Of a stretch of DNA of 32,769 bases, positions 20,295 through 32,436 are shown in pieces. Source of the stretch: a virus; the IMG/VR virus record IMGVR_UViG_3300044645_002121, positions 1-32,769 of that record; one strand, written 5' to 3'. Made by a program: the position numbers and the translations under genes. How positions within the stretch are numbered: the stretch's first letter is position 1; each line of letters begins with the position of its first letter. The notes under the pieces are model-generated. The model searched no databases, was not told where the DNA came from, and worked only from the letters and a program-made list of their open reading frames with translations.

Positions 20295-21755
20295 TCAGTA
20301 GTACTCCGGGACAAGCCCTTCTTGACTGGACTCCTCGTCCGGCGCGTCAGTGGCCAAGGTCACGAAGTTGCCCTGGCGAAAGCGCATCAGCGCCATGGTC
20401 GTCACGTCCACCATGTCGTCGTTGTCGCCGTGCGGAAACGACGCGCACTCCTCCACCAACTCCTCGGCCCAGTCCGTGTCCGGCGCCCAGACAATCCCCG
20501 ACTCCAACACCGGTGCCACCGCGTTGACCCGGGCAATCTTGTCCGTCCCCGTCTTGCGCCCACCAGGTGAGTACATCGTCACCGGGATGTCCATCCGGCG
20601 CAGCTCCTGCTGCAGCGGCGTTCCCGTCGCCTTGGCCTCAATCAGCAGGTTGTCAGGCTGCCAGTGGTCGTACTGCTCCTTGGCCACTTTCTTGAGCTCC
20701 GGGAAATCCCACCTGCCCCGCTTGACGTCAAGCAAGATGATGTTGGCCCCCGAGTCCTCGTTCAGGTAAAACACGCCCCAGGTCGCGATGACAGAGAAGT
20801 CAGCCGTCTCCTTCTTCGAGTACGCCGTGTCCATCGTCTGGATGATGTAGTTCACCACCGGCGGCTCATCATGCTGCCAGACCTTCCACCACTCCCTCTT
20901 CAAGATCGCGCCCTCGTCGTTCGTGGGCTGCTGCTGGTACATCGCGTTCCACTTCTGCACCGACAGCGACGCCTTCACCGCCAACAACTCGTCGAGCTTC
21001 CAGAACTCCGGCCACAAAGGCTTACCACTAGGCAAGATGGCCGGGAACTCAATCACCTCCCACTTGTCAGCGTTGTGGCTCGACTGCGCCTTGATCAGCC
21101 GGGCCGTCATGTCCTTCGTGCCCCAGCGCGTCATCACAATCACAATCGCGCCGCCAGGCTGCAAACGAGTACGAGGACCACCCTGGTACCACTCCCAGGC
21201 ATTGTCCAAAGCCAAGTCCGACAAGGCATCCTGCTCCGAATGCGGATCGTCAATCACGAGCACGTCCGCACCCCGCCCGGTCATCGCACCACCAACACCG
21301 ACCGCAAAGTACTCGCCACCCTTGTTCGTGTCCCACCGGCCAGCAGCCTTTGAATCCTGCTTCAAGCTCACCTCAGGAAAAAGCTCCTTGTACGCAGGCT
21401 GATCCATCAGGTCCCTGACCTTTCGGCCAAAGCGCACAGCAAGCTCGCCATTGTGGGTCGCCTCAATGGCCTTGGTCCGCGGAGCGCGGCCCATGAGAAA
21501 CGCCGGCAGCAGGTAGGACGCAAACTCAGACTTCGTGTGCCGGGGAGGCATGTTGATGATCAGGCGCTTGAGCGTGCCGTTGGCAATCCGATCAAAGGCC
21601 GCGGCCATCTTCTCATGGTGCGCGCCAAGGATCGCCTCGGGCCAGACGTACCGAACAAAGTCGATGAAGTGAGTCCTCGCCCTGTCTTGAGCTTCAAGTT
21701 GCGAGAGCCGCAGCTCAAGGCGTAGTCGTTCCGCGTCGACGTCGTCAGGGATCAT
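20295..21755 (-). CDS. terL: Terminase large subunit
   Basis: The 486-residue protein is the packaging ATPase-nuclease. The ATPase half shows the Walker A-like MPPRHTKSE (69-77), Walker B VLVIDDPH (165-172) and VMTRWG (207-212). The nuclease half shows MDTAYS with Asp309, IEAKATG with Glu373, and the acidic cluster DNDDMVD (445-451). It cuts concatemeric DNA and drives it through the portal. ATG 21755 overlaps the HNH-like gene stop by ATGA and has a poor ribosome site, so coupling is likely. The small subunit is not adjacent but about 7 kb away (28297-28977). Confidence 0.95.
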   Translation of the reverse strand: MIPDDVDAERLRLELRLSQLEAQDRARTHFIDFVRYVWPEAILGAHHEKMAAAFDRIANGTLKRLIINMPPRHTKSEFASYLLPAFLMGRAPRTKAIEATHNGELAVRFGRKVRDLMDQPAYKELFPEVSLKQDSKAAGRWDTNKGGEYFAVGVGGAMTGRGADVLVIDDPHSEQDALSDLALDNAWEWYQGGPRTRLQPGGAIVIVMTRWGTKDMTARLIKAQSSHNADKWEVIEFPAILPSGKPLWPEFWKLDELLAVKASLSVQKWNAMYQQQPTNDEGAILKREWWKVWQHDEPPVVNYIIQTMDTAYSKKETADFSVIATWGVFYLNEDSGANIILLDVKRGRWDFPELKKVAKEQYDHWQPDNLLIEAKATGTPLQQELRRMDIPVTMYSPGGRKTGTDKIARVNAVAPVLESGIVWAPDTDWAEELVEECASFPHGDNDDMVDVTTMALMRFRQGNFVTLATDAPDEESSQEGLVPEYY

Positions 21756-22084: not shown

Positions 22085-22698
22085 GGAACTGATTGTATTT
22101 CAACTGCGAAAAATTTTTGGGCCAAATCGAAGTTTTTTGGAAGGGGGTAGTTTTCATGGAACAAGAAAACTGTTTCGCGGCTCACTAACCGCGCAAAACC
22201 GGGCCAAGGCCGGCGCAGCCTGGGCAGCCGGCCCGTTTTTTGGACCCGGGGTCCGGGTGGGGGGTCCGGGCGCCGCGGTCCGCGGACCTGGCGCCGGGCG
22301 CCGCGGCCACCTGGTCGGCGGCCTGGTCGCCTGGTCGCCTGGCACCAGGTCGGCGGCCTGGTCGACCAGGTGTTTGCATGCACATGCAAACACGGCCACC
22401 AGGTCGACACAAACACAAACACGGCCACGGCCACCAGCTGCAGCACCAGCTGCAGCACCAGGTGCAAAACCGCGCGCCACCAGCTGCAGCACCAGGTCGA
22501 CCAGGCGCGCGATACCTGGCGCGCGGACCACGGGCCAGCTGGCCGAGGCGCGCGGGGCCTGGCACGGCCGGCGGCCGTGCCGGTGGGTTAATGGGGCTCG
22601 ACCAGGTGGGCCGGCTGCAGCTCGGCCAGGGCCTGGCCTGATACCCGAAACAAAAAACCCGGCGCGCGGCCGGGCTCGGGGCTCGGGAAACCGGCGGG
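22085..22698. other. Gene-poor, palindrome-rich GC island
   Basis: No credible gene is seen; open frames on both strands are low-complexity Ala/Pro/Arg/Gly translations. The region holds many perfect palindromes: GGTCCGCGGACC (about 22277), CCTGGTCGACCAGG (22357-22370), GTGTTTGCATG/CATGCAAACAC with a CA centre (22370-22393), GGCCAGCTGGCC (about 22534) and a 9-bp hairpin GGCACGGCC/GGCCGTGCC (22561-22581). CACCAGCTGCAG occurs three times (about 22432-22490). Six CCWGG sites lie in 22322-22370. It separates the terminase operon from the accessory operons and could hold a packaging site, an origin or an operator; none is proven. Confidence 0.75.
22652..22674 (-). terminator. Intrinsic terminator 1 of a repeated family
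   Basis: On the minus strand CCCGGC-CGCGC-GCCGGG is followed by TTTTTT. It lies 25 bases past the stop of the 73-residue gene at 22699. The hairpin is nearly identical to those at 23567 and 26061. Confidence 0.9.
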
Positions 22699-27960: not shown

Positions 27961-28373
27961 TCGACCATCGCGGCGCGCAGCTCGGCCCAGGAAATTCCTG
28001 TCCAAGGCCAGCGCGCCATAGGCGGCGTGTCGATTCCCATGCGCACCAGGTCTAAGGCCTGCTCTCCCGCGAACAGCAGCAGCTCCGACTTGTGGGCATG
28101 GGCCGTGCCTGGCGGGAAGTACTGGACCAGGATGTAGGTCGGGCAGCGCAGGTCCGCATGCTTGACGTGGAAGGCCACCTGGTGCGGCGACAGGGCAATC
28201 TTGCGCCCACGCTTAACCACCTTAAGCTCGACCATCACGAACTCCCCGTGCGGGAAGGCGACCAGGCAGTCCGGGATGCCCAAGTTGACCCGGGATTCAA
28301 TCCGGGTGAAATGGCAATTTGGGACGTTGTCTTTCAGGCGCTTGTACAGGTTCGCTTCGGGCTTCGTTGCCAT
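27957..28373 (-). CDS. PD-(D/E)XK-type nuclease (VRR-NUC-like)
   Basis: ATG 28373 (MATKPEANLYKRLKDNVPNCHFTRIESRVNLGIPDCLVAF; 138 residues) is chosen because GGGGAAGAGAACG lies before it; a TTG start further up is less likely. Glu26, Asp35 in GIPD, and Glu49-x-Lys51 in MVELKVV with Gln65 in SPHQVAFH give the E...PD...ExK...Q layout of VRR-NUC or Holliday-junction-resolvase-like nucleases. Such phage enzymes can resolve branched DNA before packaging. It overlaps the terminase small subunit gene by 77 bases in another frame. Branched-DNA cleavage is family-level inference. Confidence 0.78.
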   Translation of the reverse strand: MATKPEANLYKRLKDNVPNCHFTRIESRVNLGIPDCLVAFPHGEFVMVELKVVKRGRKIALSPHQVAFHVKHADLRCPTYILVQYFPPGTAHAHKSELLLFAGEQALDLVRMGIDTPPMARWPWTGISWAELRAAMVD

Positions 28374-28977
28374 CGTTCTCTTCCCCTTCGGGTTCCTCTT
28401 CAATCTGCCTGGGCGTCACGTCCACGATGGGCCCGGCCTGGCCACCGTACAGGCGCTTGATCTCCTCAAGCTTTCGCATGACCTCTTCCTTGGACATGCT
28501 GTCGATCGTGCCGTGCCTAATCTCCTTGCGGTCGATGTAGATTGTGCCCAAAGCCTGACCCCGTCGATACTCCGCCTGGACAGCCGCCCCATACGCGCCA
28601 GCGGCCAGTGCCTGGTCGCGAATGACCTGCAAGTCGCGCATGTGCCGCTCAAAGGTGGTGGCGTACTTCTCGCCCAGCTCCCGGCGCCGCTCTTGAATGG
28701 CGGCCACGATGTGGGGGCTCTTGTCAGGGTCGGTCAGCTCCCGAGCCCGGTTCTTTGCCCAGACCTCGCTGTACCCGGCGCGGATGGCAGCCTCCTTGAG
28801 GGTCACATGGCCATCGCCAGCCACGAACTCCTCAACGAATTGCCACTCCTGCGGGGTCAGCACCCTGGGCTTGTGGGGCTTGACCGGCGCGGTGATCCGG
28901 GCCTCGACAACGGCCGGCCGGCCGCCCAGAGCCTTGCCCTCCAAAAACTTCGCGTCCTTGCCCTTGAGCTGGCCCAT
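28297..28977 (-). CDS. terS: Terminase small subunit
   Basis: ATG 28977 (MGQLKGKDAKFLEGKALGGR; 226 residues) has GGAGGG seven bases upstream and overlaps the previous stop as TGATG. Residues 41-95 read TPQEWQFVEEFVAGDGHVTLKEAAIRAGYSEVWAKNRARELT, the helix-turn-helix of small terminases, followed by ITAAI-like VAAIQERRRELGEKYATT and a coiled region (MSKEEVMRKLEEIKRLYGG). The C-terminus is charged and disordered. The small subunit binds DNA and recruits the large subunit. Here about 6.5 kb of accessory genes separates the two. Confidence 0.85.
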   Translation of the reverse strand: MGQLKGKDAKFLEGKALGGRPAVVEARITAPVKPHKPRVLTPQEWQFVEEFVAGDGHVTLKEAAIRAGYSEVWAKNRARELTDPDKSPHIVAAIQERRRELGEKYATTFERHMRDLQVIRDQALAAGAYGAAVQAEYRRGQALGTIYIDRKEIRHGTIDSMSKEEVMRKLEEIKRLYGGQAGPIVDVTPRQIEEEPEGEENDGNEARSEPVQAPERQRPKLPFHPD

Positions 28978-29192
28978 CAGGCGACCCTCCACAGCCGCCA
29001 GCCCTCGCCATACTTGCGGATGGTGAACCGCACCCCAGGATGCCGCTTGGCGTACATGTAGGCCGCGCTGCGCAAGTTTTTGATCCAGTCCGCGTCCAGC
29101 ACCAGGAAGCTGTCGCCCACCGCCATGTCAGGGAAGGGGTAGACCTGCCGTTGGCGGTCGTCAGGCAGGGGGACGTGTCTCTCGATTCTCAT
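28977..29192 (-). CDS. Small phage protein, possibly DUF7303-like
   Basis: From ATG 29192 the 71-residue protein reads MRIERHVPLPDDRQRQVYPFPDMAVGDSFLVLDADWIKNLRSAAYMYAKRHPGVRFTIRKYGEGWRLWRVA. The string PLP...YPFxxMxVGDSF...A...R.G.xFT.R...xG.R.WR matches a widespread small phage family that I recall as DUF7303, function unknown. An in-frame ATG at 29210 (MLHNRP) is an alternative start; neither has a clear ribosome site. Its stop overlaps the terminase small subunit start. It is the first gene of this minus-strand operon, next to the control region. Confidence 0.72.
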   Translation of the reverse strand: MRIERHVPLPDDRQRQVYPFPDMAVGDSFLVLDADWIKNLRSAAYMYAKRHPGVRFTIRKYGEGWRLWRVA

Positions 29193-29265
29193 AGGCCGAT
29201 TGTGCAACATTTCCACAGGGTAACGCAACAGCCCGGCCAGGGCTCCTCACGTTTTCGTGACTTTA

Positions 29266-29467
29266 GATATCTTTTTCTCAACATTGGTTTCATTTATAAG
29301 CAGCAAAAAAAGTCGCGCGCGCATTTTATGTGAATTACACCATTACACTTGTAGAACACACTGTAATCATCTCTAACCTATTGATTCTATTCATCTATTA
29401 CATCATTACATCACTTCTTCATTTTTATACTGCTTATGAACGAAACCAATGTTGAAAAAAAGGTATC
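29266..29467. repeat. 38-bp imperfect inverted repeat around an AT-rich core
   Basis: The left arm is 29266-29303 and the right arm 29430-29467. They are complementary at 34 of 38 positions, with the shared block CAACATTGGTTTC and the ends ATAAGCAG. The 126-bp core is AT-rich. It holds two tandem pairs of ATTACAY with an 8-bp period (29334 and 29342; 29397 and 29405) and an inverted TGTAAT at 29362 between them. No target-site duplication is obvious, so a transposon remnant is not favoured. A replication origin or operator complex is possible. Confidence 0.85.
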
Positions 29468-29492: not shown

Positions 29493-29554
29493 TTGCCCCG
29501 CCCCTTTTCCCCCCGTAGAATGCGCAAAGCCCAGGTGCTGCAAACACCTGGGCT
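29493..29554 (+). promoter_or_regulatory. Promoter and leader hairpin for the HNH-like gene
   Basis: TTGCCC (29493-29498), 17-base spacer and TAGAAT (29516-29521) form a sigma-70-like promoter. A perfect 10-bp hairpin AGCCCAGGTG/CACCTGGGCT with a 7-base loop (29528-29554) follows within the leader. The ribosome site is GGAGGAGAACG, not the AGAAAG type. Confidence 0.68.
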
Positions 29555-29590
29555 CCACTTCCCACTGCATCGTTGGAGGAGAACGACACC

Positions 29591-29902
29591 ATGAGCAAGC
29601 CTGATCCTAACACGCTCGCCTACATGCGCGAGATGCTTGAGTACCATGACGTTGGCAATGGCGCCTTGATTTGGCGCCATGGGCGACTGCGCGGTGAGGT
29701 CGCGGGCACTGAGACCAAGAAGGACAAGCCTGAATTGCGCATTCGCTTTGACGGTGCTTCGTACCTGGCGGCCAAGGTCGCGTGGTTCTTGTGCATGGGT
29801 TATTGGACCGAGAACCGCCTGAAGTTCCTCAACGGCGACCGCACTGACATCCGGATGGAGAATCTGGAGGAGACGGACCGCAAGGACGGCCCGGGCCGCT
29901 GA
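29591..29902 (+). CDS. Degenerate HNH-like protein
   Basis: ATG 29591 follows GGAGGAGAACGACACC and gives 103 residues (MSKPDPNTLAYMREMLEYHDVGNGALIWRHGRL). The C-terminal half, YLAAKVAWFLCMGYWTENRLKFLNGDRTDIRMENLEE, follows the layout of phage HNH homing-type endonucleases, usually YxxHRLAWxxxxGxxP...DHxNGDxxDNRxxNL. Here the usual catalytic His in DHxNGD is replaced by Phe (KFLNGD) and the HRLAW His is also missing (AKVAW). It has probably lost nuclease activity and may act as a DNA-binding protein. It is one of only two plus-strand genes. Confidence 0.78.
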   Translation: MSKPDPNTLAYMREMLEYHDVGNGALIWRHGRLRGEVAGTETKKDKPELRIRFDGASYLAAKVAWFLCMGYWTENRLKFLNGDRTDIRMENLEETDRKDGPGR

Positions 29903-29993
29903 TCTCGACTGCAGCCCCGGTCCGTGGTCCGTGATCCTGTATAAATCCGCAGTTCACCTAGGGTAAACCCCTATAAAAATAACACTTGACAAG
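29903..29993. other. Short spacer upstream of the 30078 promoter
   Basis: No gene is seen. It holds the tandem heptamer TCCGTGGTCCGTG at 29921-29933, one of several related copies to the right, and AT-rich sequence leading into the promoter. No clear terminator follows the HNH-like gene, so its transcript may run into the 30078 gene. Confidence 0.55.
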
Positions 29994-32066: not shown

Positions 32067-32436
32067 TGTTGTTCTCCCTGAGCATCTTCTCGGCGTCATA
32101 GAGCAGATCGCGGTACTGGTAGTCGTACTGGTTGATCTGCTCGTCTGTGAGCCCGACCCAAGGGCGCCGCGGTGGGGCGGTGTAAAGCGCGATGTCCGTG
32201 GTCCGTGTTCCCAGCTTACCCTTGTGCTTTGCAGGAATCACTTCCGTGTCGCTGTCGAACTCAAGGTCCGTGGTCCATGCAGCGGGCTGCAGCGTCCACA
32301 CTGCGGTCAGCAGGTCGGCGGCGCAGTTGAGGCGGTAGATCAGGGCCGGGTGCAGGTGCTCGTCGAGTCCTGAAGCGTATCCTTTGAGCCACTCGGCGGT
32401 GGTCAGATAGAGCAGGTGGTTGTCGTCGTCGTTCAT
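32056..32436 (-). CDS. Unknown protein with a WVGLTDE motif
   Basis: ATG 32436 (MNDDDNHLLYLTTAEWLKGYASGLDEHLHPALIYRLNCAADLLTAVW; 126 residues) is chosen because AAGGACAC precedes it and the start overlaps the upstream stop by ATGA. The N-terminal half is helical; the C-terminal region carries PRRPWVGLTDEQINQYDYQYRDLLYDAEKMLRENN. Proteins ending in a WxGLTxEE-type segment are frequent in phage accessory operons. No enzymatic motif is visible. Confidence 0.7.
   Translation of the reverse strand: MNDDDNHLLYLTTAEWLKGYASGLDEHLHPALIYRLNCAADLLTAVWTLQPAAWTTDLEFDSDTEVIPAKHKGKLGTRTTDIALYTAPPRRPWVGLTDEQINQYDYQYRDLLYDAEKMLRENNNAA

Follow-up and report, generated by a model that had tools for sequence, protein, structure and literature searches.

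Which function is served by a long inverted repeat that encloses short direct repeats and lies, in the genome of a lake phage, next to the gene for the small terminase subunit (terS)? The element is found in the IMG/VR record IMGVR_UViG_3300044645_002121, and the 32,769 nt of this record are referred to here as the window. The initial annotation offered a replication origin, a multi-site operator or a small mobile element as possible functions.

Anatomy of the element

An inverted-repeat search delimits two arms of 46 nt each that are complementary at 40 of 46 positions (87%) and separated by a spacer of 110 nt. The arm match of 34 of 38 positions and the 126-nt core (29304-29429) reported initially were reproduced, and the full arms extend beyond them. 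Among inverted repeats with arms less than 400 nt apart, this is the top-scoring one of the whole 32.8-kb record (62 vs 30 for the runner-up). Folding of the element as single-stranded DNA gives a z-score of -4.0, and none of 200 dinucleotide shuffles is as stable. The element and its surroundings comprise the following features.

28297-28992, minus strand: terS, small terminase subunit (phrog_51, 2e-8), in 137 of 141 loci
28977-29228, minus strand: ORF of 83 aa between the element and terS, a conserved neighbour
29266-29311, unstranded: left arm of the inverted repeat, pairing kept in relatives despite altered sequence
29314-29323, unstranded: GC-rich motif CGCGCGCGCA, adjoining the terS-proximal arm
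29334-29340, plus strand: iteron ATTACAC, copy 1, in the cluster between the GC-rich motif and the IHF-type site
29342-29348, plus strand: iteron ATTACAC, copy 2, with an 8-bp period
29362-29367, minus strand: inverted iteron (TGTAAT on the plus strand); 64 of 72 distinct cores carry GTAA on this flank of the IHF-type site
29374-29386, minus strand: IHF-type site AATCAATAGGTTA (WATCAANNNNTTR), a perfect consensus match
29397-29403, plus strand: iteron ATTACAT, copy 1, in the cluster beyond the IHF-type site, which has three copies in most relatives
29405-29411, plus strand: iteron ATTACAT, copy 2, in the cluster beyond the IHF-type site
29422-29467, unstranded: right arm of the inverted repeat, pairing kept in relatives despite altered sequence
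29591-29902, plus strand: HNH_3-like gene on the opposite side, optional and outside the element (47 of 141 loci)

The two ATTACAY pairs and the inverted TGTAAT that had been described in an AT-rich core are thus present at 29334-29348, 29397-29411 and 29362-29367. Across the record, ATTACAYCATTACAY is matched exactly at just two places, ATTACACCATTACAC (29334-29348) and ATTACATCATTACAT (29397-29411), and with up to three mismatches there are 3 matches vs 0.77 expected. The exact IHF consensus occurs at 2 sites in the record (0.42 expected). The CGCGCGCGCA motif, the IHF-type site, the link to terS and the parallel elements with other iterons had all been overlooked in the initial annotation.

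The element is located between the replication module and the module that runs from terS to the structural genes. Of 141 loci, 137 encode TerS downstream of it, with little variation in the distance between the two, and the right-hand neighbour, on the non-terS side, varies among relatives. The earlier description of the site as the point where transcription diverges holds locally but not genome-wide: in the relative DSL-LC04 almost every gene has the same orientation, and the rightward genes adjoining its element are a short interruption of this layout.

Core and arms are conserved in different ways

A near search of a phage collection with the window DNA returned no matches, so relatives were gathered by protein and pattern searches. 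A protein search with the small terminase together with a DNA pattern search yielded ~150 related loci, and a BLAST-anchored set of elements, used for the arms, contains 72 distinct full versions. In this freshwater family, which is common in IMG/VR, the element is present as a single copy per ~62-kb genome, at one locus and in one orientation. The comparison with relatives that had been suggested as a check did not refute the initial proposal: relatives retain the sequence of the core and, for the arms, their ability to pair.

The conserved core reads cgCGCGCA-TTTTATGTG-AATTACA ... GTAA ... TAACCYATTGATTTCATT ... TATTACACCATTACRTCTATTACGTC. Its TAA-N4-TTGAT stretch is an exact IHF consensus in 64 of the 72 distinct cores and deviates at a single position in the remaining 8, and the N4 spacer takes 12 different forms; since the rows are related, these numbers describe a pattern and should not be read as a tally of independent changes. 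One flank of the IHF-type site typically carries one forward TTAC and one inverted GTAA. The other flank has three forward TTAC in 57 of 72 cores and an inverted copy in none of the 72.

The arms change fast in sequence and retain their complementarity. Left and right arms of the same element score 43.9 on average vs 27.3 for arms paired across different loci. Pairing lies above the 99th percentile of dinucleotide shuffles in 48 of 72 distinct elements; in the remaining third or so it does not, which counts against the origin reading. Within the subgroup of the window itself, 23 of 38 arm pairs have changed on both sides, and the covariation score is 0.340 compared with 0.157 +/- 0.019 in shuffles (0 of 500 as high); sliding the partner lowers it to 0.084 or less.

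Marine phages share the layout and differ in the iterons

DSL-LC04 (OR003939), for which the family 'Dishuiviridae' has been proposed (PMC10611076), carries the element at 20554-20773. Its arms of 44-45 nt are quite different in sequence from those of the window, and no inverted repeat in the stretch searched is stronger. Searches with TerL and TerS further identified HTVC023P, HTVC027P and 023Pt_psg01. The HTVC023P-type phages are described as widespread phages of SAR11 (PMC9599517), and three groups of them have the same element plan with unrelated iterons.

HTVC023P-type elements have the arms TTTCCTAATACACTTTCTTACAAACA / TGTTTGTAAGGAAGTGTATTAGGAAA around CTAGGAAA iterons and lie ~140 nt upstream of terS. 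In 023Pt, arms of 47-49 nt surround TGGCACA iterons, accompanied by CGCGCGCG, a GC-rich motif that is found beside one arm in several lineages; CGCGCG-type motifs occur in the elements of DSL-LC04, 023Pt and HTVC027P-type phages. HTVC027P itself has GTTACAATG-type iterons, and its relatives have TGTAACA, TGTAGCA, TGTCTCA, TGTGACT or TGAAGCA iterons in the same layout. The central site is TATCAACASTTTA-like in the HTVC027P group and is degenerate relative to the IHF consensus in the TGTCTCA-type phages, HTVC023P and 023Pt. In many marine groups, the arms are weaker than those of the window family. In 023Pt and HTVC027P, terS is inverted relative to the element, which lies on the 3' side of terS and not in its leader.

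The blueprint, located near terS, is an arm, an iteron cluster, a central IHF-type site, a second iteron cluster and the other arm. HTVC023P-type, 023Pt and HTVC027P-type phages keep this layout with different iterons, so the blueprint is common to the groups and the iteron word is not. Freshwater and marine phages have this control element in common, in single copy and under strict conservation.

Two marine loci deviate. In L398, where the element lies ~365 nt past the end of terS, TGAAGCA iterons occupy one side of the central site and TTGTCACATTGTAACA the other, and this mixed element is possibly a half-completed iteron switch. L063 contains, ~2.2 kb from terS, an inverted repeat of 104 nt with 99% identity that is perhaps an assembly artefact.

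Iteron type, TerS and the replication module

An AEP (TOTE-type) primase domain is encoded in DSL-LC04, HTVC023P, 023Pt and HTVC027P, in proteins of 509-542 aa. Homologues of the DSL-LC04 primase with 76-80% identity are present in seven of nine window-family records. Neither an SF3 helicase domain nor a PDB relative was found for the primase.

The switches of the iteron word between close relatives allow candidate binding proteins to be compared with iteron type. In the HTVC027P group, phages with TGTAGCA and TGTCTCA iterons share a near-identical TerS helix-turn-helix (HTH; SARQYASKLQ), and only one TerS column separates the TGTARCA from the TGTCTCA types. The TerS tree requires 10 changes for five iteron types, and a joint change of the TerS HTH and iteron specificity was not seen in the comparison of HTVC027P-type sequences. 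Across 15 early regions of HTVC027P-type phages, residues 1-150 of TerS are 0.96 identical within and 0.90 between iteron types, and columns 300-430 of the primase are 0.98 identical within and 0.50 between them. L419, which has TGTAGCA iterons, encodes a TerS that is equally near both types (0.87 and 0.87) together with replication proteins of the TGTAGCA type (primase 0.94 vs 0.66).

Judged by raw identity, iteron type agrees better with the replication module than with TerS. Because it tracks the replication proteins, L419 included, we favour the replication module over TerS as the reader of the iterons and regard TerS as an unlikely binder. The correlation extends to several early genes. 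After correction for PolA, the genes 463_1023 and 3493_4200 correlate with iteron type more strongly than the primase does, and TerS retains a weak correlation of its own, all of which counts against an origin read by the primase in particular. As the early genes are linked, these correlations do not single out the primase. The AA and AA2 lineages both have TGTAACA iterons, and their primases are only 47% identical, which likewise counts against this reading.

A candidate replication origin

We lean, with modest confidence, towards reading the element as a replication origin that is recognised by the phage's own replication proteins, most likely the AEP primase. Among the three functions proposed at the outset it is the best supported, by a single-copy syntenic iteron site in AT-rich DNA, covarying arms, the IHF-type site and the tracking of replication genes by iteron type. 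It is favoured because an AEP primase is present, the stem-loop of pRN1 sets a precedent and IHF is known at iteron origins. The replication proteins, most likely the AEP-type primase, would bind the short iterons in the two clusters flanking the IHF site, and IHF would bend the DNA and bring the clusters together. The AT-rich core could then open, the long arms, once single-stranded, would fold back into a stem that carries the core as its loop, and the primase may start on this structure. We infer iteron binding by the primase, bending by IHF, stem-loop formation by the arms and the initiation itself from sequence.

The AEP replicase of pRN1 (ORF904) needs a 100-nt stem-loop whose structure is conserved and whose sequence is not, and a similar stem-loop is reported next to the AEP replicase gene of phage BIP-1 (PMC4234260). 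Likewise, the phages described here combine an AEP-domain replication protein with a large stem-loop of conserved pairing and variable sequence, as in a pRN1-type origin. Their loop, however, measures ~110-130 nt and contains iterons and an IHF-type site, the arms reach up to ~60 nt, and a search of the primase for an SF3 helicase domain gave none. The pRN1 origin directly follows the replicase gene, whereas the phage element adjoins terS and is ~10-13 kb from the primase gene in near-complete window-family records, which counts against an origin.

IHF acts at the iteron origins of the plasmids pSC101 and R6K (PMC4980987), which resemble the phage element in that iterons, an IHF site and AT-rich DNA lie close together. 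The phage iterons differ in being short (7-8-bp words) and split into clusters that flank the IHF-type site; inspection by eye showed no conserved DnaA box, and the annotation of DSL-LC04 contains no Rep protein. At the origins of SaPI and SCCmec, short repeats close to inverted repeats are bound by a replication protein, as would be the case for the phage element, but this protein is a helicase encoded next to the origin, and no IHF-type site was noted in the account of these origins (PMC7581432).

GC skew, which had been suggested as a check, does not change sign at the element in DSL-LC04, HTVC023P or HTVC027P and lends the origin reading no support. The skew follows gene strand in these phages; a sign change is expected for a bidirectional mode, and unidirectional or rolling-circle replication is still compatible with the data.

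Packaging, regulation, RNA structure and mobility

The same parts could serve the initiation of packaging at a pac or cos site, where TerS or another packaging protein would bind the repeats around an IHF bend and the large subunit would cut nearby. The cosB site of lambda has the layout R3-I1-R2-R1 (PMC4669245) and the 161-bp pac site of P1 the layout HEX4-IHF-HEX3 (PMC10028697). The phage element resembles both in having repeats that flank an IHF site or occur in either orientation, in its extent of 120-200 bp and in its place near terS, which is constant in several lineages for this single-copy element. Ends of contigs carrying terS are also enriched within and close to the element, with few such cases among HTVC023P-type contigs, although this enrichment may be an assembly effect of the low-complexity arms. 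In the window family, the contig ends are spread over ~60 nt and not fixed at one base, and near-complete contigs run through the element and end at unrelated places, so that no fixed cut is seen. Also against packaging, the iterons of HTVC027P-type phages change from TGTAGCA to TGTCTCA without a change in the TerS HTH, terS is inverted relative to the element in 023Pt and HTVC027P, and cosB and P1 pac lack long covarying arms. Given the TerS result, the missing fixed end and the arms, we keep packaging at low weight and consider it unlikely, although it is the main rival of the origin. A regulatory site at the early/late boundary, at which a phage regulator and IHF would control the late operon that begins with terS as well as the opposite neighbour, appears quite unlikely. 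The element does lie between the two modules, its iterons of 6-8 bp with inverted copies resemble regulator sites, and IHF is common at regulated promoters. But no sigma-70-like promoter was found inside the element, the iteron pair does not recur elsewhere in the window and the core motif occurs once per genome, covarying arms of 40-60 nt would be superfluous for a regulator, and in 023Pt and HTVC027P the site is on the 3' side of terS. The multi-site operator proposed initially is a less likely candidate than the origin.

Pairing of the arms in a transcript read in the terS direction is very improbable as the function. The arms do co-vary, and their mismatches lean to G-U when read on the terS-sense strand, by 59 to 31 for the window family and by 59 to 34 for HTVC023P-type phages. 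This lean is weak and permits no conclusion about RNA or DNA, because transversions are frequent (145 of 235 arm mismatches in the window family), the elements compared are related, and C-to-T mutation bias of the coding strand would produce a lean of the same sign. Furthermore, the element is outside the terS leader in 023Pt and HTVC027P, no Rfam family matches over it, and its loop contains an IHF site, which is of DNA type. A MITE-like mobile element, living or a remnant, would explain the terminal inverted repeats and the size of ~200 bp, but the core is conserved by sequence, and we regard this origin of the element as extremely improbable. Mobility was rejected on the basis of the single copy, the constant locus beside terS, the one orientation and the lack of any match in 257 Gb of GTDB genomes. 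No copies were seen at unrelated loci, which the initial annotation had named as a refuting condition, and its observation that the flanks contain no obvious target duplication stands.

Novelty and meaning

We found no published description of the element in a literature coverage that is incomplete, which leaves its novelty unproven. Word searches in papers that name these phages yielded nothing on intergenic elements, inverted repeats or termini, and no published origin or packaging site was found for HTVC023P-type phages or the freshwater family. The element could tentatively represent an undescribed class of phage origin in abundant freshwater and SAR11 phages, in which iterons flank an IHF bend within a covarying stem-loop, an AEP primase takes part and the iteron word has been switched repeatedly between close relatives. 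If the element is an origin, it provides a concrete site and makes the AEP primase a candidate initiator, and the iteron switches form a natural series that could reveal how protein and DNA recognise each other. If it is a packaging site, these phages would have a cosB-like site that owes its specificity to something other than the TerS HTH, which would be equally unexpected.

Other features near the element

The HNH_3-like gene (29591-29902) is kept at up to 99% identity in relatives, even though the usual HNH histidines are apparently replaced (AAKVAWF and KFLNGD, in a translation read by eye). A strong terminator-like hairpin, AGCCCAGGTG...CACCTGGGCT, is located outside the element at 29518-29597 on the minus strand and gave the only Rfam match, to FinP, below the cut-off (29.4 vs 45 bits). 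Repeats of the GGTCCGTGGTCC type occur at 29912-29937, 32186-32204, 32258-32276 and other places in the window (11 matches with up to three mismatches vs 1.8 expected), and similar runs come after the element in many relatives. Three HTVC023P-type contigs (L229, L243 and L263, among L217-L296), a number too small to define a terminus, have nearly coincident starts, a few bases apart, at CAGAG/GGCC next to the element and ~60-95 nt upstream of terS. The window also contains, at 22100-22600 and just upstream of the TerL side, a GC-rich stretch of low complexity with overlapping imperfect inverted repeats.
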